Source of the DNA: Tubiluchus corallicola | Lineage: Eukaryota; Priapulida; Priapulimorpha; Priapulimorphida; Tubiluchidae | DNA: 64,000 nucleotides | Direction: 5' to 3' | NCBI GenBank assembly: GCA_030141605.1 | Contig: JAQGDQ010000010.1 | Coordinates: 1,117,501-1,181,500 of the forward strand | In this document: positions 116 through 54,836 of the stretch, one piece after another | Position numbering within the stretch: the first letter of the stretch is position 1 | Layout: every line of letters begins with the position of its first letter | Translations under genes and position numbers: made by a program | The notes under the pieces: generated by a model | Database searches by the model: none | The model's input: only the letters and a program-made list of their open reading frames with translations | Told to the model about the DNA's origin: nothing

Positions 116-3100
116 GTCGAGCAGCTGGATGCTCAGAGAAAGCTACTGCGTGATGAACTGAAAGAGTACAAATCCATCGAAACTCGAATGTTGCAAGATT
201 ACTCCGAGCTAGAAGAAGAGAATATCATGTTGCAGAAGCAAGTTTCTGCTCTGAAGTCTAATCAGGTAGTTACAATATTTGTATGCTCACTAAAATAATT
301 GATATTGGTTTGTGAAAGTCATGTTTGAAGTTGTAGATAACTCACTTTGTAGAACAAGAATAAACAACTATACTACATATTTGCACAAAAGCACAAACGT
401 GTTTATTAGACTACATACACATATGTAGAATGACTGCTGCACTGAACACTGAGAACAAGAGTGTCCTGCACTGAACACTGATAGTTAGACAGTGACTCGA
501 AAGTAAATCCAGTCAGTATATATAAGCAGTGGCGTCGTGCCATAGGGGCCCGGGCCCCCCCAATTTTTTTTGGTGCACGATGCCCCTGTATATAGGTATA
601 GGTGATTATGCAAACTTGGCTTCACAAAAACCATTACTGTAAAATAGGGGGAGATCCAATGAATATGGATTCACTGGACCGTACAATTATACTGGGGGTG
701 AGTTTAGCTAGTAAAATGTAAAATTATTAGTTCATAGATGGCAGCACCTAAAAAATGTACAATTACAACTTCCACATAGTTAACAAGACAGTAAGTAGGT
801 AACCATCGTTAATTAGGCCTATGTAAGGTCTCTTGCCTCTGTTTTATTCTACAGTAATTTGTAAAATTGTTTTTAGAAATTTTGTATCTTTAGAAAGGTG
901 GATGATGTAAAATGCTCATCAAACATGCTGCGTACAATTGATTGAATCATGCGTTCATGCACACTCCATGTAAGACTCCTGTTTATATAAGTACGGGAAG
1001 ACAAAAATGAACAAATATGTGTACAAAAAGATAAATATCGTAACAATTGAGATGCGCATAAGTAACAACTCAAAGCTGATAGAGTTATTTAAAGTCTAAA
1101 ATCTGCTAGAGGAAAATTATTCACACCAGTGAACGTTCAGTAAAAACTGCTTGTAGCATTTACTATAGAAAGAGCTGATTGGAAGACATGTATATCAGAT
1201 TCTCTTTTCTGTCTTATTGCCATTGGATGAGTTTTGACCTTTTGCTAAGTCTTGGGAATTTTCTCTGACCTCATCTGATAAACATCTTTTTAGTTAGCTA
1301 CCCTCTATATACCAGGAATAAGTTATGTGTAAGCAAGACATGACTGTATATGCCTAGAAATATGCATTGAATTGATTTTTTATTACATACATATCACTTT
1401 CTAAATAAAAATTTTATTATGGGTTGATGTAAAATGGCTTATTGTAATTTGGAAAGTCCCCTGATTTTAAAGTTCTAGAACAAACACTACACTGAAAAAT
1501 AATTGATTAACAAGCAACTACTTTTTTAAATTTGGTTAGGTTGAGATGGAAGTCTGGCGTCATGAGAACATACGACTTCATGAAGAAGTTGAGGTACTCA
1601 ATGGTCAGGTGGATGAGTTGAAAAATCTCAAACGAATTGCTGAGAAAAACCTGGAAGAGGCGCTGGAAGCCCTGCAGGTAGAGTAAGAAGTGTAAACAGT
1701 TTGTTTGCATTTGGCTTAGCCATTTTAACATTGCTATTAGAAATGTTGGAGTTTCTCGCATGGGAGCTTATGGAAGTGTGGGTTGTTTAATGGTTGTATT
1801 ATATTCACATGTTCTGTTTCTGTTGTAACATTAATTTAGTGCTCTTAATTTAGTAATTGTTTAAACTGCTTGTGAGTAGCTAAATGCAGCAGTGTTAATC
1901 TTTTTTTGTTAATTATGTGTTTTAGTTGCAATTGCAGCTATGCATGCATTGTTGTGTTTTGTTGTAAAGCAGTCTGCATTTACTCCACTGTAAAAAATGA
2001 TTCCTGTGTACATCTCTTGTTAATACATCTCTTTGCAAAGCCCTTTTGTAAAGCATGTTAGCCAGCTTTTATTACATTGTTTTGCTTGTTATTCTGTTGT
2101 TGTTGTTATGTTATGCTTTAAGTTTGTTCTTCTGGGATTGACTGCAAGATTACTTCTAAAATGTAGAAGCCTAGATTTCACAGACAGCAACACTGTGTTT
2201 TTAAATTGCAGGAAGAGAGAGAACAGAAACATGCATTCAAGCGTGAACTCGACCAATGCAAGAATTCTGAAGCTTTATTTAACTTCAGCAACTTGGCATT
2301 TAATACGTTCAAGGGAGGAAGTACCACAAATGTTGAAGGAAATGCCAATGCTGCTGGAGACATGGGCTTTGATCATGAGGATGATGATATTGCTCTAAAA
2401 CAGTAAGTAACTACATTTCATCTGATGTCTTAAAGTCCATAAATATAAAATGCTTGTAGCTGTTTTAAATGACCGTTCCATAAATTCTTAACAAGCATTC
2501 GATTAAGTACAGGATTTTCTCATTTTTTCCGTACATGTGTAACAAAGCTTTTTGCAAACCTAAATCCAGTACCCAGCAGCAGATTTTTGCTGATTGAATG
2601 TTGTACTCGGAGCTGGAATCGAGCTTCTTAACAAGAATAATCTTCTAAAATGAGACACTGGACCAGCCGAAGTGTTTTGCCACTTTCATGTGTATATAAG
2701 TCCTCCCTCAATGACAGTAATAGCCGGCTAAAGTTTGATTCAAAGCTTTCTGGCTACACTTTTTCGGGATGAATTTGTTTAGCTGAATCCATTGCTGCTT
2801 CACTTCTGTAGTTAAGTACACACCTGCTATACTGCCTCTAATTTTTTATCTTGCTGTGCGAAGATGTATAGATGCAGATCTGAATTAACCAAGCTAAAAC
2901 ACTTTTGCCGGTTTAATACAGTAGGCTCCACTTAGTAGACTCACGGTTAATAGGCTCAATCGCTTAACTGACTCAAAAACGCCTGGAATGGACCGCTTCT
3001 ATTCAAATGTACATAAAAACTATCGGTAATTAACTCGAATAACTCCACATAATTGACTAAATATTTTCCTTCACCTACTTAAAATAAGACATTTGTATGT

Positions 3101-6100
3101 GCCCAAAGACCCTTTCTTAGTTTTATGTCATCTTTACTTCCCTTTTGTGCACTAGGTATACAGAAACAATCATGTTAAGTACCGTTTTGTTTTTAAGCAG
3201 GTACATTTGTCATGCGCTAATACGCTAGCATAGCGGTTTTGCTTTGAATCTGTTACCCGCTCGCCCATGGTTACCCAAAGAATTTCTGGAAGCTAAACAT
3301 TTAAACGCTAGCCTAGCGGCTTCCTTTTGATGCTGCTGTTGTCATACATGATGAAAGTCATACTTTCATACTTAATGAGTTAACTTCAAAGATGCAGGTA
3401 CAGTAATCAGCTGGTATTCCTTGTGACTTACAAGAGTAAACATAGTACAGCAAATAAGAGCAATGTAAGTGAACTGATGATTCAGAACTGTTTTAGTCAC
3501 ACACAACAACAGATTTTCAACGTTTTTATAATCACGAGAACTTTGTGGGTGAACTTCTTCGCGAGAAAATGAAGCAGCCAACTTTGAAGGAATTTTTGTA
3601 ATTTTGCAAATAAATTATACTTTTTAGTTTATCGCTAATTCACTTATATAAATTAATATTTTAAAATTTTTTTTCTGATTTTTAACTGCACAGAGAAATT
3701 TATGGAATTACTTCGTTTCTAAAATTCATTAAAAACCTTTGCAGTACATAGTAAGCTGATGACTCTTACATTCTGTACCTATAACTACACCCATCGGTTA
3801 ATAGGTTCACTCGGTTAATTAGGTCAGAACACGTTGGTCCCAAAGTGAGTCTATTAAGCGGCGCCTACTGTATATAGTATTTTTAGAGAAATCTTTGATA
3901 ATGAAACCGATTACAGTCCTGCCACAACTGTATACGCTCATATCTCGGTTTGTCGGACCTCGCTTTTACGGATATCGGAAGAATCGGACAAAATCTGGAC
4001 CTTTAAAAAGTCTGGCACACTACGGACACAGTCCATTGTTTCACGAACTGACCGCTAGTTGGCGGACCGTCATTTTGTGTACATCATTACATCAGTGCAA
4101 CCACGTGTATATCTCTATATATAAAAATTATAGAGTCAATTTTATATACTTTTGCATAGGAGTTAGTTTGCAAGTTAGTAAGTTTGCACTCTCACTGCTT
4201 TATCGTTTTTGCATTAATTAGTGTAAAACACTCCTATCTTTGAGTTGTCTAAACCCTGAAGTTCCTCATCGGATTATGTCACAATCATAAGCATTTTTGG
4301 ATGTGTATTCTGGCTTGTTGTGTGCCAAACTATTATTTCCATTACCAGTCACTAGCGATCAAAAATTATTAGATACTTGACATAACAATGTTTCACATTA
4401 GTGCTTTAAGGTATACCATATTTTTGTGACTAAAATTGATGTATTATCAACCTTCCCATACATACTGCACTAATTTCTTTTCATTTTTCGATTATCATCC
4501 AAATCGGTGTTTACAAATTTTCCTTAACCATATTACTTTTATTAATTCTTTTCACTTCATTGCAGATTTGATGCTGATTTTGCTGCCAGAACTGAAGATG
4601 ACATACCTCGATCGAGCTTGGCCAACGAGCTGATGAGTGAGCTCCACATGACAGAAATTCACAAGCTCGAGCAAGAGCTAAACAAACTACAAGAGGAAAA
4701 ACTACAGCTTGCAAAAATAATACAGGAATGGGAACGGAAGCTGGACACCATGCACAGCGAGCTTGCTCATGGAGAATTGTCCTCGCGACTCTTGCAGCTA
4801 GTCGAGGAGATGAAAGAAAACAACACTGCATCTTTGGCTGACGAGAACAAAGACGGAGAAAGCGAGTCCCCTGAAATACTCAAGCTGTCTAAATTGGTTC
4901 GTGCCAGTGAGAAAAATTATGCTCTAGCTTTAAAGCAAATTGTCGAACTGGAGTCTGAAGTTGCTAAGGCACAGGATGAGGAAAACAGTGTGTCGCATCA
5001 TCACGAGTCATTTGTCAAAGACCTTCAGGATGATTTTGCCAAGTTGAAGAACAGAGTTATTGAATATGAGGAGAAGGTGAAGTATCTGGAGGAAGATCTG
5101 CAGACGATGAGCGAAGTTGCCGGGGAATCACAGAAATGTCTGACTCACACACAAGATGAACTGTTAAACATCAGCGAGAACATAGCACAGTTATATCACC
5201 ATGTGTGTGTGGCCAATAATGAAATGCCAAACCGTGTTGTGTTGGACCACAACCGCGAAAAGGGGAAACTGTTCGAACCAAGTAAGAAGGACGGTGCTGA
5301 TGCTAATGTCAAAGCTGAAGTAAAAGAAGAGAGACTCGATGAAGCGACTGAAGAAAAAATTGTTCCGGAAAAGAAAGCCATCATTGAAATGAGAAAGAGA
5401 TTATCTGGGTCAGAAGAAGCTAAAGGTGACCCAACAACTTGCCGAAAACTACTTGATACCATAAAAGATCAAATGTCTTTTCTTGGTAAGGCTGTCGGAA
5501 CGACAATAGAACATGCTCGATTAGGTTTGGCCACTGATGATCAATCCGTGGATGTTCAGGAGCTGCAAGAACAGATACTGAAACTCAAGGCGCTGCTGTC
5601 TACGAAACGGGAGCAGATTGCGACACTGCGCACAGTTTTGCGCGCGAACAAGTCCACCGCCGAAGTTGCCCTGGCCAATCTCAAAGCAAAGTATGAAAAT
5701 GAGCGAGTTATTGTCACGGATACAATGATGAAGCTGAGAAACGAACTGAAGGCATTAAAAGAGGATGCTGCCACATTTGCTTCATTGCGTGCCATGTTTG
5801 CTAGCCGATGTGAGGAATACGTTCAGCAGTTAGATGAACTGCAGCGACAGCTAAATTCCGCCGAAGAGGAAAAGAAGACTTTGAATTCACTATTGCGAAT
5901 GGCAATCCAGCAGAAACTGGCACTAACACAAAGACTGGAAGACTACGAGTATGACAGGGAGCGCCACCAGTTGCGGCGACAGGGTGGCGGAGCAAGGAGG
6001 AATAACCCCCCTCGGGTAGGTTACAATCCCTACACTTTTGTTATGTCTCGACGTGATAATAGTCAGAATGCATCTGTGAGTAACCGTCGTGATCACTAAC

Positions 6101-8612
6101 CTATGGCTTAGCTGTCAGGTGGTGGTACTAACTGACAAACATCTGTCAAGTAGAGAAACAGCATAGCTGTAAGCTAGTCTTATAATCATGTCAGAAACCA
6201 GTGTTTTAGGCTAATTGTGACTTGACGATCTCATTTTAATAATAAATGCTAGGATATAACGAAACTAGAATGTTTGAGCCTCCTGTCTGCAAGCACAGTT
6301 TTAAAACACAGTACACTCCTAATCACACCTTAAGGTTAATTCACCTTTTTAACGTGATCTAGCACATTACTGTAAATTGTTCTTGGCTTGTGTCATTTGG
6401 CCAGAGTGCAATTAAACCTTCCTGTTGTTGAAAATTTTTATTGTTTGTTATGAATACTGTAGTGATATTAAGCACACAACTCTACTGTAAGTTACAGTAG
6501 TCCTGCCTAAATCTGTTGATAAAATCTATATTTTTGTTAGTTTTTAATAATCGTAATATATTCAGGGAAATGCACTTGATGTTGTGTATTATTCAGCACT
6601 ATAAAAGAAAGCATTTTTATCTTTACTCTGACAATGTTTTTGTTTGTTGTAATAAGTGTTTACAGAAATGTTTAACTTATTCCTAGAATTTTTTTTACTA
6701 GAATCTAGGATGTAGATTGTATTTATTTTAATTGTGTATTGCAATTGCAGTTTATTAATGTGTCTTATGCTTCTCAAAATTTGTTGCAATAATTTGCTCA
6801 TGCTTCTTTTTTTACCTAATTTATTATAAAATAAAACTATTAAGAAAAGCTTTTGCTCCGTTATTGTATTTTAGTTTGTCATTTGTGGGTTCATTATCAT
6901 TTTTCTTGTCATTACCATCAGCTGTTGTATATCTTTCATTTTTAGCAAGCTTTTTGAATTTTATCTGAATAAAATATCTGGCATATTCGTTTTGCAATTT
7001 TAACTCCATTAGTCACAAATTTTTGTGTTTCTACATAGCAGAAGTCTATTAACGTACTTCCAACTGTAACTTGTTGCTAGTGGCAATTTGTCTGCTAATA
7101 ATCTGCTTCGGGGCTGCTCCATTCTTTTTAACAGTTTTCATTCTATTAACACATTGTAAATGTGCATTTTTTTCATGTTTAAACTGACCGGCTCTTATTT
7201 TTCAGGGGAGTCCTGGTCAGCGGTCGAGGGGTACCCGAGGCAGATCTAGCGGACAATTCTCAAACAGTCAGACAGAACAAAATAACAATTACAGCTGTGC
7301 TCGTAAGTCGCTTTCTTTTGATAGCAATCCAGTAGCAGACTCGGCACCTCAAAAGTCAGCAAATGCAGCCAACAAACAAGGTAAAATATTAAACGATGAC
7401 TGTTCGAATGCCCAAACTGATGAGCATGACATTATTGTGTTATATGATGGCAACACCACTGGTGAATCATCAAAACAGCAATCTCCTCCAAGCCTTAAGC
7501 ATCAAGAACCTTCAAGGGTGAACTCAAAGACTCGCAGCTCGCATCCATGGACTTCCAAGCAGAAAGAACAGGTGTTAACAAGCTCCCAGCAGCAAAGCCC
7601 ACCTCCTTTAATGAGCTTAAAAAACTTGAGGCCTCCGCCGTTGCTGACCACTAACAATATTCCTTCTAAGTCATTTCCAGAAACATTAAACACGGTCATG
7701 TCTCATCCTGTTGAGAGACCTACTTCTAAATCAAAGAAACGGCGGAACAAAGGTCATTACCAACCCACTTATAGCAACTTTGGATACAATTTCTCTCCAG
7801 CCAACAAAGAAGCAACTAATTACAATTTCGTTTCTGATACACATAATAATACGGATAAGCAAAGAAATGTTCCAGATTCTTTTAGTTCAGAAAATCGAAT
7901 TGGCGAGGGTAAAGGTAGTAGGGGTCAGGCTAGCCCACGGGCTCGTGGATCTCAGAGCAGAGGAAAGTATCAAATGAGAAGGTTCCCCAATCCATACTCA
8001 TCAAGAACAAAAGGTAGGTACAGTAAGGGAAGTTACCACAACAGTCCATTCAGTGCTTCAAGTAAATACTCAAATTTCCGTATCAGTGTGAACGAACAAG
8101 ATGGAAAGAGGCGGTTCCCAGATCCGGACATTTCTAGAGCTGTTGAGTCCGAGAATTTACTATCTGACAGGTCAGGGCAAGGGAGGGCACTGCAAAGGTC
8201 AGATGATGTGTCACAGAGTAGTCCATGCCGAAAACCAGCATTACCATCAATGGCCAGGTCGTCCAATAAAACACAAGATAGTCCATCTGGGAAATCACCC
8301 AAGCCATCAAAGTCCAAAATGGACTGCAGGTCACACAATGCTCCAAACCAGAATGTACCTGCAGCATCACCGTCGAAATTAGACAAAGACGATGGGTCAC
8401 GTGATCTTCAACCTGGAAAAGTGCTATCTACAGCAACTACATCCAAATTGGATAATAGATCACAAGATACTGTCCACACAAAAGTTTGCATGACACCTGC
8501 ATCCAAGCCAGGCAGCATGCCAAAGAATCCTCCCCACCGGAAGTTGCCATCTGCTTCATCGCAAGATCCTTCAAATTTAAATGCACAAACATCTCCAAGC
8601 AAAAAATATTGA
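116..8612 (+). CDS. BICD: Bicaudal-D family dynein adaptor, 5'-partial, long isoform
   Basis: Coiled-coil adaptor that links dynein-dynactin to Rab6-type cargo. Exons: 116-265, 1540-1677, 2212-2402, 4566-6015 and 7206-8612; upstream exons lie outside the window. The first exon carries the family-typical DYSELEEEN block. The 4566-6015 exon holds the second and third coiled coils, including an [19 protein letters not shown] stretch and the C-terminal cargo domain with [27 protein letters not shown] and [17 protein letters not shown], nearly identical to vertebrate and fly Bicaudal-D. Phases close: 50 codons, 46 codons, 63 codons plus 2 nt, then 1 nt plus 483 codons. The last exon joins in phase 0 and adds 468 residues rich in Ser, Lys, Pro and Arg, with no domain I recognise. 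About 1,111 residues are visible. Identity is very secure; use of the last exon is inferred from the frame and the TTTTCAG acceptor. Confidence 0.95.
530..600. repeat. G/C-rich interspersed repeat fragment
   Basis: Within a BICD intron: a GTGGCGTCGTGCC start, then a run of G and C (GGGGCCCGGGCCCCCCC) and a T-run, unlike its A+T-rich surroundings. The GTGGCGT...GGGCCCCCC layout resembles ends of dispersed elements seen in many invertebrate genomes. I could not find a second end. Confidence 0.3.
2919..3870. mobile_element. Non-autonomous pogo/Tigger-like DNA transposon
   Basis: A 952-bp insertion in the BICD intron. The left end, starting CAGTAGGCTCCACTTAGTAG, and the reverse complement of the right end, CAGTAGGCGCCGCTTAATAG, match for about 26 bp with four mismatches, and both are flanked by TA. 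Sub-terminal GGTTAATAGG-type units recur inside both ends. TA target duplication with CAG-type termini is typical of the pogo branch of Tc1/mariner. I see no transposase. Confidence 0.75.
4566..6099 (+). CDS. BICD: Bicaudal-D large exon read through to a short-isoform stop
   Basis: If the donor at 6016 (CTCGG|gtaggt) is not used, the cargo-domain exon stays open for 27 more codons and stops at 6099. This gives a C-terminus of ordinary length for the family, directly after the coiled coil. A canonical AATAAA follows at 6241-6246, so a complete short transcript is possible. Spliced instead to 7206, the same exon yields the extended protein. The two forms share the whole Rab6/Egalitarian-type cargo-binding coiled coil and differ only afterwards. 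Which form dominates cannot be read from DNA. Confidence 0.7.
6241..6246 (+). promoter_or_regulatory. Poly(A) signal, short BICD transcript
   Basis: Exact AATAAA 142 nt after the short-isoform stop and inside the intron before the 7206 exon. It fits alternative polyadenylation as the switch between the two C-termini. Confidence 0.55.
7206..8612 (+). CDS. BICD: Alternative 3' exon: 468-residue disordered Bicaudal-D tail
   Basis: Open for 1,407 nt in one frame, preceded by a strong pyrimidine tract and cag acceptor. It begins Gly-Ser-Pro-Gly, then an Arg/Gly/Ser patch ([11 protein letters not shown]), later [11 protein letters not shown] and KGRYSKGSY, two related RRFPNP/RRFPDP motifs, and a terminal Ser/Pro/Lys region with recurring SKLD-type units. 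No coiled coil, membrane segment or known fold is visible; composition predicts disorder with net positive charge. Vertebrate and fly Bicaudal-D proteins end soon after the cargo coiled coil, so this is an addition. A stretch this long open by chance in A+T-rich DNA is very unlikely. Confidence 0.8.
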   Translation, partial: GSPGQRSRGTRGRSSGQFSNSQTEQNNNYSCARKSLSFDSNPVADSAPQKSANAANKQGKILNDDCSNAQTDEHDIIVLYDGNTTGESSKQQSPPSLKHQEPSRVNSKTRSSHPWTSKQKEQVLTSSQQQSPPPLMSLKNLRPPPLLTTNNIPSKSFPETLNTVMSHPVERPTSKSKKRRNKGHYQPTYSNFGYNFSPANKEATNYNFVSDTHNNTDKQRNVPDSFSSENRIGEGKGSRGQASPRARGSQSRGKYQMRRFPNPYSSRTKGRYSKGSYHNSPFSASSKYSNFRISVNEQDGKRRFPDPDISRAVESENLLSDRSGQGRALQRSDDVSQSSPCRKPALPSMARSSNKTQDSPSGKSPKPSKSKMDCRSHNAPNQNVPAASPSKLDKDDGSRDLQPGKVLSTATTSKLDNRSQDTVHTKVCMTPASKPGSMPKNPPHRKLPSASSQDPSNLNAQTSPSKKY

Positions 8613-11600
8613 AATAACTAGCAATAGTAAATTTTGCCTGTGGCAGATTGATAGCTGTCGACGTGAATTGGAAAACGGTGTAATTAATGAGTGATAGCTA
8701 TTACATAGTGTAATGACTTGAGCACTCTTACTTTCCTTGGTTTTCCCTTTCTCGAAGTTCCTTCAAATTTGTGAAACGATAATTATTCATAACAAAAAAC
8801 ACAATGTAGCCCTTGTCATAACTGAGTACGTCCTGGGCTTCTTGTTGTTTTATTACTGTCACTTGCACATAAAAACTAGTTATGCATTCCTACCAATAGG
8901 ATAGTTAATATTCAGCATTTGCGATATGGTCTCTATAATCTTCCAGATATACTTCTAGCTAAAATAAAGCTCCAAATTTGTGATTACTAAAGTGAGCTTA
9001 TTATTTTCGTTTTGTTTCTAATAAAAAGAAAATAGGCTATTAAGCTACTGAATATTTAATACACAAGAGAAGTCAACCCATTTTTTATATATCATTACTG
9101 GTGAAATATGGGTTACATATTAGGCTTATCTGAATAATGTAAAATATAACAAGGTTTTTGCCAAGTGAATATCCTATACTGTAACTGCTAATTATACACT
9201 CAATTGCTGTACTCACTTTACAGTAACCTTAGTTACTTGCATAGTCATCCTATTGGTAAAATTTGACTCAATTACTTGCACTACCTGAAAGTTAAAGCAA
9301 GGATTTCAATAGTTATTGTATTTGAATGAAATTATATGACATGAAGGTGCTGACGGTCTTCGGTGAAGCAAATATCATTAAAATCCACTAAAATGTTTTG
9401 ACATTGTGGCTCTGAAACAAAGGGCAGATTGTTGTATTCAGCAGCTTGTCTATGACTATGTTGTCTTGGCCTGCATTAAAGAAGGGTCTATTTAATAGGT
9501 AGGTGTTAAATCAATTTAATATCACTTATTTTGATGAAAAAAATTTACAAAAATTTGTTTAGTCCCTTTATTACTGTTTCAAGTGCCTATAATTGTTGTT
9601 CTTTATTTTTAATGCAACAAGAAGTATGCCTTATTTTTCACTATTTATTACTTTGTTTTAATAAATATTGTGCATTTTTTATTTTATCAAAATGTTTTTC
9701 ACTAAGTGCCTAACTAATCAAAAGTGCTATAGTCATAATGGTGGTAGCAGATATCTAAATTAAATGATGGTACTAGTAATTAGTATTAATATATTAGAAG
9801 TTGACAAATATATTTACATTGGTTATTTTTAGCCATAGTTATTTTAATTAAGTTTATGATTCTATAAAATCAAAAAGAGAATTTCAGATTCCAAATGCAT
9901 TATTCGTTTTAATTACAGCAAATCCGAAATTTAATTTGGTATTCAAGCTCTATTTCTGTTCTTTCCTACAATATTGTACTAAATATAAGTCATTGTTTGT
10001 AATCCATCTTGTTCAAAACATAATATTAGTTGTCGTACATTAATTTTATCATTATGAATTTAAACCAGCAAATTAATTTTATGATAGTGTTTTCACTATT
10101 CATTAGTTTTACACATAGATTTTATTGCCTGTTTGTTATCTGCTTTTCTACGAAAAGTCATTTTGCAATTATCATTCTGCACAGTACTTTCGTGTAAAAT
10201 GTACTTTTTCATAATGCATTTTTAGATTTTTATATTGTAAGTCTTATAATGCAGAATCCACACTTTATATTTGGTGTATTTTATATGTATATCATAATAA
10301 CTTTTTTGGCAATTTTAAAATACTCTTTGATGATAATAAGTCTCCAAAATGAAGCAAAATGTTTGACACCACCACAGTAAACTAATGACACACATTATAA
10401 CATAGCGCAGAGTTTATTTATAAATATTATATGTACGAAACCAGCTATACTGTACATAATCCTATAAATAACTGTTGTTAATACTTACACGACCACGTAA
10501 ACAAATAGCGAAATTAATTTTTGGTATTTAATCACAGTAAGATAAATAGAAAAGAAAACAAAAATCACATCAACACACAGTCCTGCCTTGTAAACGTAAC
10601 AGCAAATGAAGGTAAAGTTACAAAACAGCGGAAATGTGGAATGCGGCTGAAGCCCTTATACAGTTAAATACTTAACTGCAGTTATAAACGTGTCTTATGA
10701 CTATGTACAAGTAGTTGGTGGTATAGAAGTTGAACTACCACATTTGTCAGACTCATCAAAAAACAGCAAACATTAGTTTATGCAAAACAATCTCAAAGAA
10801 AATTCAGTGGAAGTGAAAAATTAGCAGACAAATTTGATGATGATGCACACAAAATAATGTAAAAATTTTGAAGAAGCCAATGACTTAATGCTGCTTTACC
10901 GTTACACCTTTAATTGTTACCAAAAAGGAAACACTCATTAGAACATAATTTAAATGCTCAACAAAGTAAAAAATTATTCACATCTTTATACGGTGAAAAT
11001 ATTTGCACGTGAAAAAACTCGTATTACTTACTATAGGCCAACTTCAACATAAACTATTCATATTGTGAATAACAAAAAATTATTCTGAAAGACAATTTCA
11101 GCTGACTCTGTATTTACACTGTCAGTAAATATGACACAGCTATAAATATTCTGAAATGGCCGTTTGTGCAAGTAACGAAAACATCAGCTCACAAAAAAGA
11201 GAAAGGTACAATTAAGGTGCTGCTTTGTGATGGGTAAAGTATAAAAAAGTAAGTGTTGAGCCTTAACACAAAAATTGTAAGATATAACTGACAGATCATC
11301 TAGGTAAACCGTTCAAGCCAGTTTATGACAACAGGAGCGAATAAATTGCAGACTAATTGTCAAGATCCTATAGCTGCCGTTAATAAAAGCAGATATCGCA
11401 CGACAAAATTTCAAGAAACTTGGAAAATTATAAGTAACGAAAGCAGTATTTTAATAAATCATTTTATAATTGATAATTGAAAAAAACTTATATGATTGAA
11501 GCATTTGTGTATAGAAAAGCTCGGTGTATATGAAAGTTGCATTAATAATAAAAAAGACTGTATTAGAATCGCACAGTGTGGCTGGTAACATAAACGTAAA

Positions 11601-32860: not shown

Positions 32861-35800
32861 CTACAGTACATTGCTCACTGCACCACCTTGCGTCATCACT
32901 GGAACATTGGTGTTTATCGCTTGTTCGTAATCATCGACTGTCGTTGGGTTGAGGGTAAAATAGTGGTGACTGCCCTCCTCCTGCGGTAGTGGCATTTTGC
33001 CCCGATTTTCTAAACTGGTAATGGTTCCCACTTTGTCCGACGGCATTGTGTAGCCACTATCGTCTATCGGTGTTAGTTCATTGTAGTACGGATATTTAAA
33101 CATCTCATCTTGTACTGAGATACCTGGACTATTCGGCCAGGGCATTGGTGCTGAAGTGCTGCCTACAGTGCTTATCGGTGGTTTATTGCTAAACAAGGAA
33201 GAACATTTACATAAAAGAAAACATAATTACATTGTGTATGTGAGAAAAAAATCATCCACATACATGCATGTGTAATACAATAGTAATGACCTCTGTTGGA
33301 GCTATATACTGAAATTAAAATTTGCTTTAAACACTTTGTTTTCCCAAAATTTTGTTATTTATAAAAGTTATCCTTTTCATTTGCAGCTCAGAAAGTTGTG
33401 GCTGCCCGTATGTGCCATTTTGTAGTCCAGTAAAAAAAAAACCAGTGTTTTTAATTCGCACTGATTTGTGCACTAGCATCACTGACTGACAGTGGCTTTA
33501 AGTTGACGGAGAGTTGTTTAGCAGCTAGTCAAAATTGCTTCTTTTTGCAGCATGTCAATATCATGAACGTATGATTGCACTTGCAAAAAGATTTTGAGAA
33601 TTAGCATAATATAGACAATATGAACTCCCAGACTTGCAGAAACCTGAGTACTAGCATTACCTGTAGTCTCAGATATTTATTCAGAAGCCAGGGTGGTGAC
33701 TCTGTTAATGTGCATATATGTGCAACATAGATGTGAGTACGAATGGGTGAAAATTGCAACTTGGCAAATTTTGCAATGCAAATTTAGAACTGCCATGTTA
33801 GATCAGTGTCTCAGTCTAGAAATTTTACCTTGATAGTGGGCTAGCTTCCAATCCAGTCACTATCATCTACATGTTCATTAAGTAGGTCTGACCCTAATAC
33901 GTAAAGGTGACTCACTTTTTCCACATGTAGAAGACCAGACCTGCAATGATCATAGCAATAAGAGCAAGCACACCTATGGCAATTCCAATCCCCATGGCAA
34001 CGTCGGAATTGCTCGCACCGCTTCCGTGATCATCAGGAGTTTCAGGATCTTTTGGTTCAGCAACTGTAATGATAAAAGCACATTTAGCATATGACAGTTA
34101 CTGCCCCAGTGGTCCTATTCATGCTTTACTCCTGTTCAAATAAGCCGTATTTACACTTAGATGGCATGGTATGTCTGTTAAAGTAATCTATATTCAACTC
34201 AGTGGGTACTGGGTATCAAAATTTAAATTTAGAAATTGTACATTTAGATAATAATTACAAGGTAATCTCACTTTTATTCTTTATTTTAGATTTATGTGCA
34301 TTCACCAACATTTATTGCCAATGAGAGCATTAGTGTTTTTTTTGTAATTCATAGTGCTCATTGCTAGTTTTTGGTAATGCCATTTTTCTTGTTTTGTACA
34401 CACATTAAGAAATCTATTTCAGTGATATATTTTAAGTGCATTTTATTTAATTTTTACATGCACTACAGTTCCATCTGTTGTCAAAAAATAGAATAATAGG
34501 ATCGTAGTCCAAAGTATTCATTTTGGACTGATTTTAGGTCTTCCATGCAAAATTAAATTACATTATTGTAAAACATAGAGTCATAAGTCATTTAGTAGAG
34601 TAAATCACACACTCATGTATCGAAATAAATCGTAGCAGGTTCCTTTATTACCTGAAGAATTTTTATGCTAAAATCACTACATTTTGTTGGTGTATACTAA
34701 CACTTGTAGATGGTGCCACCAGTTTTGTAACAAATTGTTGGGTTTGTTATGACATTGTAAAATATGGGCACTTGTAGTACCTTTTATTGTCAATGAAAAA
34801 ACTGTAATCAATACGCACTGCATCTGGGTTCTGATCCAAAAGCATACTGCCACGTGGCATCCTTTGTGTTGTCACTGCACTCGCAAGTCATGTTGGGACT
34901 TCCGCTCAACCTTGTGGAATCGCCATCGCAACTGATAGTGACGTTCACACCGCATTCACAGTGGTGTTGGTCGCAGCGGTCAGCCGGGTATGGAAACAGC
35001 CTTGTGTCCTGCGTGCTGTGCTGCTTGATTTTCTGACACCCACCTTTGGAAGAGAAAAACAATTTATCTTTGCAAGTTATTGATAAATTCCTTATTAGCG
35101 GGGAAGAAAACGTGTCATTCATTGCTCATCTACTAATAACCATTGTAACTGTTACAGTACTGATAGTGAGAGTGAGAATCACCACTTTGATAGTAGTGTA
35201 TAGTCTACAATATTGAAAAACTAACAACTGATTTTATTTAGAAATATTTTGTTTTCCACACCTTGGAGCCCTAAGGCATGCCAGTGGTAAGTTGTTTCTA
35301 AGCCCAATTTTTATTTGGTCACTACGTATAACTGAGTGTACGTGGTTATTTATGTACTCACGACATGCAGGTTTCATCACCCATATTGGTGGCGTGCTGT
35401 CACAACTGCACCGTGCCGTGTTGGACCCGGCAATTGTCATCCCCTTACCGCATGTGTAGGACACATTCGTTTGACATGGACATGACGTGTCGCTGCAAAC
35501 ATCTTTTGGAAAGTCCACCACTTGAAGCTTGTGACCATCCCCACCATGCACGTAGACTGTCTCAGCTTCTGCTCGCTTGCAAGATACTAGAGAAACACAA
35601 AGCAGTTGACATTCTGATATTTTGTGTGACATCACTGGGATGTATTACAATTACTGTGAGATAGGCACAATTCCATAAACTTGTAAGCAGTCTTTTTTCA
35701 TTACGCTCATTTTGAATTTAATAAATGGCCACTTATTATTATTACATGTATCACAAGAGTTTCGGCAAAGGTATTTGATTAGAGCCTGCGACTTACTTTC

Positions 35801-48998: not shown

Positions 48999-49667
48999 TT
49001 AAAACGTTGTAATTAAAGTTCTTTTGCCCAAGGAGGAATTGAGCCCATTGTAGGATAGCAGTATATGAGGGATTTCGGTAACCGTAACAAGTGCTTTCAT
49101 TATCCTATCCTGAAAATTGTTATACATTTCTTCAGGATCAGCTATCAATTGAAGTTCAGCAGAGAATTCTGCCATTGAGATACATATGTCGTTTTTCAAA
49201 ATTTGTTGTGAACAGCCTTTTGAAATCACGAATATACATAGGCATATTAACTGAATCATTACAATTTTTCTTGTTAAAAACACAGAAAACCCCCAATGGT
49301 CGCTTATATCATAAAGGATTATTCCAGCATCAATTTTTAACTGAAGGTTGTTTGTGTATATGTGGTCTAGATATGACGGGTTTTGGTTTGCCACAATTCT
49401 GGTTGGCTTCGTAATTAATGACTTATAGGAGTTTGACCATATCATATTTACATAGTTAAAAATCACCTCATTAGTTTCATAGTCAAGAATATTTAAGTTC
49501 ATATCACCCATAATATAGCATTCTTTGTTTTCGCTATTAATTTTTTTGAGATTAGAGCTTAACAAATTTGTCAAATTCTCAATTTCTTGTTTTAGGGTCC
49601 GAGGACGACAATATATCAAGCCCATTATTAAGTTTTTTTCAGCGCTTGCTGTGATATTTCTATCCAA
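48999..49667 (-). pseudogene. LINE endonuclease fragment
   Basis: Blocks GLIYCRPRT, GDMNLNIL, TKPTRIVANQNPSYLDHIY and DISDHWGFSVF match in order the endonuclease/exonuclease/phosphatase fold used by non-LTR retrotransposons to nick target DNA. The start region and the catalytic N-terminal part are missing or frameshifted, and the frame ends soon after the domain. Confidence 0.88.
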
Positions 49668-50137
49668 ACATTTTCACAAAACGGTATACATAATTTTAGG
49701 TCAGGCCTAGATCACATATTTTTAAAACAACAACCCCCACTTGCTGTAGGAGAAACATCACGTAATTCACTACTTATAGGATAACCTTTAATGTCTGTAT
49801 TAGTTATTGTTTCGCCAGAAAACTTCGTCTCTGAAATTCCTACAAGTTTTACCGATTTTTAATGTCCTTCAGCAGTTCACACAATAATTCATGTTTGTTA
49901 GCGTTCAGGCGACACAGTATTGAAGTGCAAAATTGCGAAGTTTTGGGCATTGTTATTTAATCTCTCTTTAAGAGCTTCCTTTTCGTAATACATTGATGAT
50001 TTAATGAGTTATGATCCTCATTGTCTAGAGTTTGAATGTTCAGCAGGTTCGTGTCGAGAAAATCAGGTAAGGAAACACTGTTGAAAGATATTTGGTTAGC
50101 GTCATCAGCCTGTGCACGTTGAGATGTGGAAGCCATA

Positions 50138-50862
50138 TTAGGAGTTTAGGCGACTTTCTGCTGCTATGTATTCGCGGCAGTTTTTGTCCCAAGCGGCATG
50201 ATCTTCCTCGCAATTTGCACATTTACATGCAGTTACGCCACACGACTTTGTTTCGTGATCACCCGCACATTTCCCATATTTGGTATTTTTGTTGCACCAC
50301 TTTGCAACATGATTAAAAGCTTGGCACTTGTAGCAGCGAGTTGGTTTATTCTTCATTATCAACTCCTCCACATTACACATCATTTGACCTATAGGAATAC
50401 CCTGGTCTATAGCCTCTTCCAATTCATCTCTAGAACGAAAGATCAGTTTTCCTAATGGATATATGTAGGCATCTTTACGCTTGAAGCGTTCAAATTTCAC
50501 ACCATCATAATATCTTGCTATATCGCTAGCAACATCTTCATCAGTCAGTGTCACATCGCAATCTCTTAGAAGACCAACATGCTGAATATTAGGCTTCCGG
50601 TTAATAATTTGGTTCCTAAATAATTTGGCTTCCAGTTTGCTATTAACTCGTCAGCAGATGCTTTGTTCCTTAATTGTAATTGAATTTTCCCTTTAGCTGT
50701 TCTGATAGCCACGTCGAATTTGGTTCTGGGATAATAGTTACTTGGATTTTTCTTAATGTATGCACTAGTGTTTACAAAAGACTTGTCTTTGACGTTGTCA
50801 ATGACAACTGTTCGTTGTGGGTCATACTGAACTTGCATAGAGACTTTACATTTAGGTTGCAT
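50138..50862 (-). pseudogene. LINE ORF1 (nucleic-acid chaperone) fragments
   Basis: Two adjacent frames. The first (50862-50566) looks like an RNA-binding region; the second (50554-50138) has a perfect CX2CX4HX4C knuckle (CYKCQAFNHVAKWC), a second knuckle that lost its first Cys (YGKCAGDHETKSC) and a third CANCEEDHAAWDKNC. Three knuckles in this spacing are typical of ORF1 in R1/Jockey/CR1-type elements. A frameshift separates the two parts. Confidence 0.82.
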
Positions 50863-51724
50863 AGATTTGGAAAGACTTATACTTTGCGAGGAAGTAGATT
50901 TTACAATTTCGCTATATGATAAATTAGATCTATTCGTGTTCTTAGCTAGGTCTGTTACTTTTTGGACGATTTTTGCAGCATGTCTGTCATATTCGTTATG
51001 GTCTTCGTAGCAGTATTACAATTTGTTTCTCCACGTAACTGCACTTACTGCCTTACTGCACTTAAAGGTCGTTCAACCGTATTTTCCTTCTGTATTAGCT
51101 GTATTGCTTCAGCTTTTAGCTCCGTCAAAGAATTGATGTCTAGTTCTATGTCTAATGAAAAATGTTGGAAGTTCTGGTCTTCCTCATTTGTATGCTCATT
51201 TGCGTATGTCGCGCCATCTTCTGTAGTCGAAATATTCTGAAGGTCTAAATTTGACGCGTGTTGCGCCAAGTGCTTAGTATACATTTATCGCACGTGACTG
51301 CAACTATTTTCCTTAATTTAATAGACGTGTCTATTTTTCTACACAGCTCACAGCTTTTTCTGTTTATTTGTTGGCTATTCAACTGTCTGTCTTCCCACAA
51401 TATGGCCTGCAGGACTTGTTCAATACTTAGACTGGATATCCAACAATAGAGTAATTAGGCCTTAATGGCCGTTTAGCTGTAGGGTTCAAATTGGTTCTCC
51501 AGCTCAGTTTTAGTCATTGTTACATGATATATAAATAAATATCGACAAATTTTCCTCGACATCACCAGAGCTCTTTAATATCCAGTTCTTGAACCAATTT
51601 TTTTGAATTTTCTGGTTGTTCACAATCAAAAAGATATAAAATTCGTACATCAACACTGTCCTATTGTGGTAAAATTTGGCATAATTAAGAGAGCACATAT
51701 TGTCAACATCTATTCACATGCACA

Positions 51725-52588: not shown

Positions 52589-53239
52589 ATGATTTCATGT
52601 TGGGCGACCACTGGTGACCCTAATCTTGCCCCTGATTGTCAGTACGAGAGTATGGGTGAAACTGGCGCTGGAGGTGATGCATACCTGGACAGGAAGTGGT
52701 CGCAATCAGTCACACAACTCCGTCCGGATGAGTTTGCCATTCTACAAAGCCGATCGGTCAACCGCCGTGTTATCATCAACGTCGGAGGCGTCAAACACGA
52801 GGCGCTGTGGAAAACACTTGAGCGTCTTCCGAGAACGCGCCTTGGACGCCTCAAGGAATGCGAGACTCACGAACAGATCATGGAGATCTGTGACGATTAT
52901 TCACTCATCGACAATGAATACTTCTTCGACCGGCATCCCAGGAGCTTTGCTTCAGTTTTGAATTTTTACCGCACCGGGAAGCTCCACCTAGTGGAAGAAA
53001 TGTGCGTCTTGTCTTTCTCAGATGATCTTGAATACTGGGGCATTGATGAATTGTACCTAGAACCATGCTGTCAGCACAAATTCCATCAGCGAAAGGAGCA
53101 CGTACATGAAGAGATGAGAAAAGAGGCAGAGAGTTTGCGAGAGAGGGAGGAAGAAAATTTTGGCGATGGTGTTTGCTCACCTTACCAAAAGCAAATATGG
53201 GATCTTCTAGAGAAGCCCACATCAAGCAAAGCTGCACGG
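52589..53239 (+). CDS. KCNB: Kv2/Shab voltage-gated potassium channel, first coding exon (T1 domain)
   Basis: Encodes 217 residues, the cytoplasmic N-terminus of a delayed-rectifier channel; the membrane part is outside the window. The T1 tetramerisation domain starts at about 60 ([12 protein letters not shown]) and includes [28 protein letters not shown] and [17 protein letters not shown]. The zinc motif of Kv2-4 subfamilies, HX5CX20CC, is exact at H133, C139, C160, C161. The linker [19 protein letters not shown] followed by WDLLEKP is diagnostic of Kv2, close to fly Shab. The exon ends at SSKAAR|gtaagt in phase 0, where vertebrate Kv2 genes also have an intron. Start: ATG 52589 is preceded by an in-frame stop; Met22 is an alternative. 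Confidence 0.96.
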
Positions 53240-54836
53240 GTAAGTTGCCTGTTTTGCTTTTTGTCTTGACTTGTGTTGAATCTTGCATTTTTCACTTCCT
53301 GTTTTTTCTGTTCGTCACCATCGTCTTCATCATATTGTGTTCATATAGTGGCATCGTTTTCACTAAGAAAAGGACTCAAAATCTGCCTCGCTTTAGAACT
53401 AAAGATCTTTGTGCACTCGTTGGAGACTTTGTCGAATTTTGGATTTGACGTCATCTTCTACCCAAATCTCCCTAAAATTCCATTCTCACCGAAGGCCCTA
53501 AATTAAAGCAAATAAAAATAGCAATCATTGCTGCTGGTGACTTGCCTAAATTTGTCATTGAGTCAAGACGTGCGCTTCGTTTCTTTGGTTCTAATTTCAT
53601 CAAAAAGAAGAAGCGGTCAAAGTTTCGTTTCCCACATTGGCTTTTTACGAATTCCTAAAATGAAATAATTAACAAACAGTTGAATGAAGTGAAAAGTGAA
53701 CTGCAAAAAATAATTTTAAATATTTGCTATAAACTTAGCTATCATGTTTCGCTGGACGGCGTGCAGAATCTATTAATCTTGTTAAGCCCCAGAAGTCGGC
53801 ACTTATTGAAAAGACATGTCTAGATGTGCGAATTGTTCTGTTGATATAAAATACCGAGAAAAAAACGGTGATCACCTGAAGAAATATTTACTGTTGAGCC
53901 GTGGATCACTGATGGAAACCGATTTTGTTAATTATTACATCCTGCCTGATAACACGTGGTTATTATTTATTTATTTATTGAACCGAAGGCAATAACTAGC
54001 AGGAAAAGGCGTGAATGTCCTCCGCAGTATGTCTGATATTTTGCCCGTAAAATACTTTGAATGCATCAAATGATGCTGACATCATTAGAGTTTCTTGCTA
54101 CTGAACTCAAAGTACGTTGGCATTGTGCTTAGACCACGTTGCGAAAATAACCATATTTGAAAGGTTTTCTCGTACCCTTCTTGATACATTGTATGCCATG
54201 TATTTCTAATAGCTTTTTCTGACAAATAAGTGAAATAGCTTGGGTGTCACTCATTACATTTGTAGCAAAGGTTATTCTACTTAACTTTAACAGAAGAGCA
54301 TTGTTAGAGGAACTGACTAGTTTTTTGCACTATGTATTATTGGATACTAGTCATCTGACCTTCGAAGATAGTAGCTACTTTTTATTGTGTTTTTGCTTTA
54401 TACAGAAAAAAATTAGTTTCCAAAATACAAATGAATGGTTGGAAGTTTTGAACACATTTATTATAAGCTAAAAAGCTGCTGAATTAATTGGTCACAAAAA
54501 TGGTTGGAAATTTTCTACCAGCTCTTTTGTCGTACGACATATTTATTGATTTATTTTATTGATAATAATAGTCAACAACACAAATTTTTACAAAGTGTAA
54601 TACAAAAATATAGTGACGTGATTTTAAATAAATGAGAGTAAGATATAAAAACAACCTAAAGAAATATTACAATTATTACGCAGTAAAATGTTAGTTTAGA
54701 ATGGTTACTATGGCTGCCTGTACAAATGAATTCCATCCAGAACTCGACATCGGTTAATTCCCGATGGAAAAATTTGAGGCAGAAATAGAGAGGGAGAGAG
54801 GGACAGATTATTATAACTCTTTTTTGTGATAAATAA

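Follow-up and report, generated by a model that had tools for sequence, protein, structure and literature searches.

A Bicaudal-D gene with an unusually long C-terminal exon in the priapulid Tubiluchus corallicola

Structure and identity of the locus

The window analysed here is a stretch of 64,000 nucleotides of genomic DNA from the priapulid Tubiluchus corallicola. Its left end is occupied by a seven-exon Bicaudal-D gene, which lies on the plus strand, starts 1.1 kb upstream of the window and ends at position 8612 (Table 1). The start of the gene was located in the 30 kb fetched upstream of the window; exon 1 is taken to begin at the ATG that fits the alignment with fly BicD, and the model covers the coding part. 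All six modelled introns are bounded by GT and AG, and the reading frame is unbroken across the seven exons. The spliced long product, in which exon 6 is joined to exon 7, comprises 1255 residues.

Table 1. Features of the Bicaudal-D locus. Positions are those of the window unless a contig is named; slashes mark exon borders.
Feature	Position	Strand or placement	Basis and remarks
Bicaudal-D exon 1	contig C1461:1116370-1116585	upstream of window	gene model
Bicaudal-D exon 2	contig C1461:1117083-1117298	upstream of window	gene model, Pfam BicD match
Bicaudal-D exon 3	116..265	+	gene model, Pfam BicD match, fly BicD alignment
Bicaudal-D exon 4	1540..1677	+	gene model, Pfam BicD match, fly BicD alignment
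Bicaudal-D exon 5	2212..2402	+	gene model, fly BicD alignment; ends in phase 2
Bicaudal-D exon 6, coiled coils and cargo-binding domain	4566..6015	+	Pfam, PDB
Intron 6	6016..7205	+	donor CGG/GTAGGT, acceptor TTATTTTTCAG/G, branch-like CTGAC at 7183-7187
Possible read-through end	6016..6099	+	open frame of 27 codons closed by TAA; the product would have 814 residues
AATAAA, candidate end of a read-through transcript	6241..6246	+	motif scan; weak, motif frequent
Exon 7, 468-codon basic, predicted disordered C-terminal tail and stop	7206..8612	+	gene model, coding tests
Last third of tail, remnant of frame-preserving tandem duplication	8181..8609	+	offsets of 60 and 189 nt
AATAAA motifs, candidate ends of the long transcript	8963..9025 (motifs at 8963 and 9020)	+	motif scan

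The identification of the gene as Bicaudal-D, proposed in the original prediction, is borne out by database matches. The cargo-binding domain, which lies inside an open frame at 4546-6099, matches the Pfam family BicD (PF09730) at 1.5e-115, with 387 bits against a cut-off of 27.9, and exon 6 spans positions 247-717 of the 718 in the profile. Compared with the PDB, exon 6 matches human-type BICD1 (2.8e-41) and BICD2 (6.1e-39) and fly BicD (2e-82); the matches to BICD1, BICD2 and fly C-terminal-domain chains are all at 6e-37 or better, side matches to Hip1 excepted. The product of exons 1-5 aligns with residues 11-297 of fly BicD (1.8e-62) and the N-terminal part also matches the BICD2 structure 6pse; exon 5, scanned alone against Pfam, gave no match. 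In Bicaudal-D proteins the AAxxG motif of the N-terminal coiled coil contacts dynein, and AAQYG, which fits this motif, is found at residue 35 of the gene product. At the cargo site in exon 6, residue 754, within QQKLALTQ, is the lysine that corresponds to fly K730 in the alignment; mutation of K730 is lethal in fly, according to an excerpt of PMC10022797. Judged from these alignments, the locus is an orthologue of the known adaptor Bicaudal-D, otherwise ordinary, with an unusually long C-terminal exon. By homology, dynein, dynactin and cargo would be bound as in other animals.

The assembly searched amounts to 343.5 Mb in 2344 contigs and encodes animal proteins. At least five Pfam BicD matches are present genome-wide, four of which fall in this gene and one, a weak match, on another contig (C2050:287117-287338, minus strand). 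The latter lies in a coiled-coil frame, scores 28.8 bits against the cut-off of 27.9 and is perhaps part of a BICD-related protein. Among the matches listed, no other locus in the genome represents a complete Bicaudal-D gene. The assembly gave no match to mitochondrial cox1. Relatives of the cargo domain were also sought in bacterial and archaeal contigs and in viral contigs, where none of the 54 and 15 pattern stretches, respectively, was confirmed, and an Rfam search of the whole window gave no match.

Other elements were noticed in the window and the genome. On the minus strand, the open frames at 48999-51015 resemble by eye, in their endonuclease-like and zinc-knuckle-like stretches, fragments of a LINE-type retrotransposon, and the Cys-rich frames at 34808-35644 have the appearance, by eye, of repeats from a secreted or complement-type protein. 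On the plus strand, an exon at 52589-53269 resembles by eye the T1 (N-terminal) part of a Shab-type Kv channel. Six contigs (C1974, C2072, C2074, C2107, C1752 and C1831) share an identical kinase match (E 3.9e-25, 95.7 bits) in a frame of 325 residues that contains one TAG, suggesting a repeated element with a kinase domain.

The exon 6-exon 7 junction and the coding status of exon 7

The cargo exon had been predicted to splice in phase 0 to a 1.4-kb exon consisting of a single frame, and the signals at the junction agree: a GT donor follows directly after 6015, the last base of the AG acceptor is 7205, both sides are in phase 0, an agreement with a one-in-three probability by chance, and 468 codons and a stop follow. 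Of the 191 AGs between 6016 and 9020, two pass a pyrimidine-tract filter, and 7205 alone is also accompanied by a branch-like CTGAC, as judged by the general consensus for branch sites. The open frame of exon 7 begins 18 nt upstream of the exon start. The junction between exons 6 and 7 is, on these signals, very likely real.

From stop to stop, the exon 7 frame measures 474 codons. No frame of this length arose in 1000 order-2 Markov sequences trained on exon 7, the longest reaching 278 codons, and the longest open frame in 30 simulated 64-kb windows was 216 codons. Coding potential was scored with a phase-specific model trained on kinase-domain stretches from the same genome; 30 loci were fetched, two with stops were left out and, of the 28 tried, one was dropped and 27 were used. 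In its own frame exon 7 reaches 5.27 bits per 100 nt, and none of the other five frames exceeds -0.39, while the best-of-six score in 300 first-order composition-matched sequences did not exceed 0.56. The true frame also ranks first in five of six 234-nt parts of the exon, scored separately.

The score of exon 7 is nevertheless far below that of exon 6 (14.77) and that of the Kv channel exon (12.96 bits per 100 nt), and even the lowest of 13 held-out kinases, scored with a smaller first model, stands slightly above it at 5.61. A low score is what a disordered region of odd composition would be expected to give; it is also a caution. Synonymous codon choice, taken by itself, offers no support for coding, with -1.8 bits in frame versus +30.8 in the +2 frame. 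The length of the frame, its rank among the six and the acceptor argue that exon 7 is very probably coding.

A possible second C-terminus

The original prediction gave the gene two C-termini, one produced by splicing into exon 7 and the other by reading through the donor to a nearby stop followed by its own AATAAA. The spliced end stands, whereas the read-through end and its AATAAA do not rise above chance. Among 4000 random intron points, 15.8% are open for at least 28 codons, and a read-through of 24 codons also follows exon 1 of this gene. The coding score of the read-through is equalled by 36 of 460 stop-free noncoding frames. The AATAAA at 6241 is weak evidence because the motif is frequent in this stretch: 16 copies occur on both strands of 4404 bases versus 9.2 expected, a count reached by 3 of 200 shuffles, and further plus-strand copies are located at 6830 and 6968, both within intron 6. 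The GC content is 39% in 6016-6241 versus 30% in 6270-7180, and 83 of 664 overlapping noncoding windows are equally high. A donor after the cargo domain followed by an open read-through is a BICD2-like feature that this gene does display, and the 814-residue end is possible, within reach of chance by length, AATAAA, coding score and GC.

These figures bear directly on an alternative in which the long form alone is normally made, the read-through and its AATAAA belong to an ordinary intron and exon 7 is a plain last exon. Such a gene would show the chance-level values just described, and the splice signals of intron 6 are good. Against it, fly BicD (782 residues) matches the short form in size, and human BICD2 makes both ends, the intron after the cargo exon being retained or removed (PMC11207751, in part). 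A gene with one C-terminus is a serious contender, to which we give somewhat less than an even chance. The human and fly precedents render the idea of two ends plausible. It is not new in kind: the BICD2 isoforms described in an extract of PMC11207751 already show such a choice after the cargo exon. By analogy with them, the production of both C-termini in T. corallicola is weakly supported.

Composition and history of the tail

The description of exon 7 as a 468-residue basic disordered extension has held up well. Lysine and arginine number 73 versus 38 aspartate and glutamate residues, the pI is 10.1 and the tail is disordered by charge-hydropathy. AlphaFold2, run on the single tail sequence, returned a mean pLDDT of 40.5, with 432 of the 468 residues under 50; low pLDDT from a single sequence without an alignment is weak evidence of disorder. 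The tail is thus predicted to be disordered, and exon 7 very probably adds a basic, disordered C-terminus of this length in phase 0.

The most abundant residues are serine (17.5%), proline (9.4%), lysine (8.3%), asparagine (8.1%) and arginine (7.3%). The tail had also been labelled Arg/Gly- and Ser/Pro/Lys-rich; the basic, Ser/Pro/Lys-rich character is evident, whereas the Arg/Gly character is only mild, with five RG dipeptides versus 1.8 expected (p 0.03), no RGG and no RGG cluster of the kind used to recognize an RNA-binding region. SP and TP are not enriched. A motif scan of the tail found no EB-type SxIP ([ST]x[IL]P) and no dynein-light-chain-type motif; it found one KKRR stretch resembling a nuclear-localization signal, together with patterns of kinase or 14-3-3 type, which often arise by chance. 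No match to the tail was obtained in Pfam up to E 1 or in the PDB up to E 10, and its single match in the genome is the tail itself.

The last third of the tail retains traces of duplication. Its DNA autocorrelation at 189 and 60 nt was reached by none of 500 codon shuffles, and the protein offsets of 20 and 63 residues stand out (p 0.004), the region having been selected by eye, after inspection. A gapped block test of this third was negative, 84 of 300 shuffles being as good, and Tandem Repeats Finder reported no repeats in the tail; a repeat search of the tail DNA returned three two-copy families of 15-22 nt, one of which has a spacing of 189. Identity between the copies at codon positions 1, 2 and 3 amounts to 20, 27 and 25 of 45 codons in one comparison and to 20, 27 and 23 of 43 in the other. 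The divergence between the internal repeats therefore shows no third-position excess and, with it, no sign of amino-acid constraint. Neither the synonymous-codon test nor repeat divergence gives any sign of selection on the tail.

An old in-frame duplication signal, copies without a third-position excess and the lack of a known domain in Pfam or the PDB would all suit a tail that is expressed without a selected function of its own, a disordered extension that drifts fast, owes part of its length to tandem duplication and is tolerated at the C-terminus. A frame that has stayed open over 468 codons, on the other hand, fits selection against stops, and we consider an idle tail rather unlikely. 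If the tail is unconserved, the gene would be an ordinary case of a drifting disordered C-terminus.

Proposed working of the long form

Bicaudal-D is a model activating adaptor for dynein, and its choice of cargo is thought to sit in the short C-terminal coiled coil. The best explanation of the present gene, which we hold slightly more probable than its negation, centres on a basic tail that would act as a weak multivalent arm at the cargo site and allows for two alternative ends. By homology, the N-terminal part would recruit dynein-dynactin and the coiled coil of exon 6 would bind cargo adaptors. The sequence strongly suggests that splicing joins exon 6 to exon 7 to yield the long protein, in which the coiled-coil dimer would bear the flexible basic tail twice, at its cargo end. 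The tail would then most likely behave as a loose arm, its stretches rich in Ser, Pro, Lys, Arg and Asn touching RNA, microtubules or ribonucleoprotein cargo through weak electrostatic interactions; these contacts might be controlled by phosphorylation, with dynein activation unchanged. Binding of RNA or microtubules is here proposed by analogy, with the disordered KIF1C tail and with fly BicD, which has been found in an mRNA-bound proteome (PMC4937569, in part). If the donor at 6016 were skipped and the transcript ended in the intron, a protein of 814 residues, the usual size for Bicaudal-D, would result, and the presence of the arm could be governed by splicing; human BICD2 offers a precedent.

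A bolder version holds that exon 7 splicing makes Bicaudal-D itself an RNA-binding adaptor: the basic tail would hold mRNA directly, alongside an Egalitarian-type partner or in its place, and membrane cargo would be left to the short form. One splice choice would then decide whether dynein transports RNA or vesicles. In fly, Egalitarian connects BicD to RNA, as stated in an excerpt of PMC10948360; we regard direct holding of mRNA as improbable. An open frame by itself is no proof of a junction, but the notion that 7206-8612 is a separate or nested gene unjoined to Bicaudal-D is highly improbable, given that the junction is flanked on either side by RG-rich sequence and that the intron upstream is AT-rich and devoid of long plus-strand frames, and was rejected on the matching phase and the acceptor with its branch-like site right at the start of the open frame.

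The gene is of wider interest: in a natural Bicaudal-D with a tail of about 60% of its remaining length, it can readily be tested whether a disordered arm broadens the range of cargo or binds RNA directly.

Comparison with known systems

Drosophila Bicaudal-D (782 residues) aligns along exons 1-6, including the cargo-site lysine at fly position 730; it differs in that its chain continues for just 22 residues past the aligned region, without a long tail. In the open-licence full text searched, no report of an invertebrate Bicaudal-D with a long C-terminal extension was found. The long isoform of human BICD1 has 975 residues, with about 140 extra residues past the cargo domain, and would be another Bicaudal-D extended in this direction; the same kind of literature search found nothing on this isoform.

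A disordered tail on the motor side is known from KIF1C, whose tail is rich in Pro, Arg, Gly and Ser, forms condensates and takes up RNA (PMC11294625, in part). KIF1C is a kinesin with no shared sequence shown, and Pro and Arg make up more of its tail than of the one described here.

Human BICD2 belongs to the same family of dynein adaptors, and its C-terminus is likewise set by the retention or removal of an intron after the cargo exon. The part of PMC11207751 consulted describes an isoform 1 that retains the alternative intron 7 and thereby gains 31 extra residues, and an isoform 2 in which this intron is spliced. The retained tail of 31 residues is comparable with the 27 read-through codons of T. 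corallicola, whereas the outcome of splicing is reversed: it gives the shorter protein in BICD2, and here it adds 468 residues.
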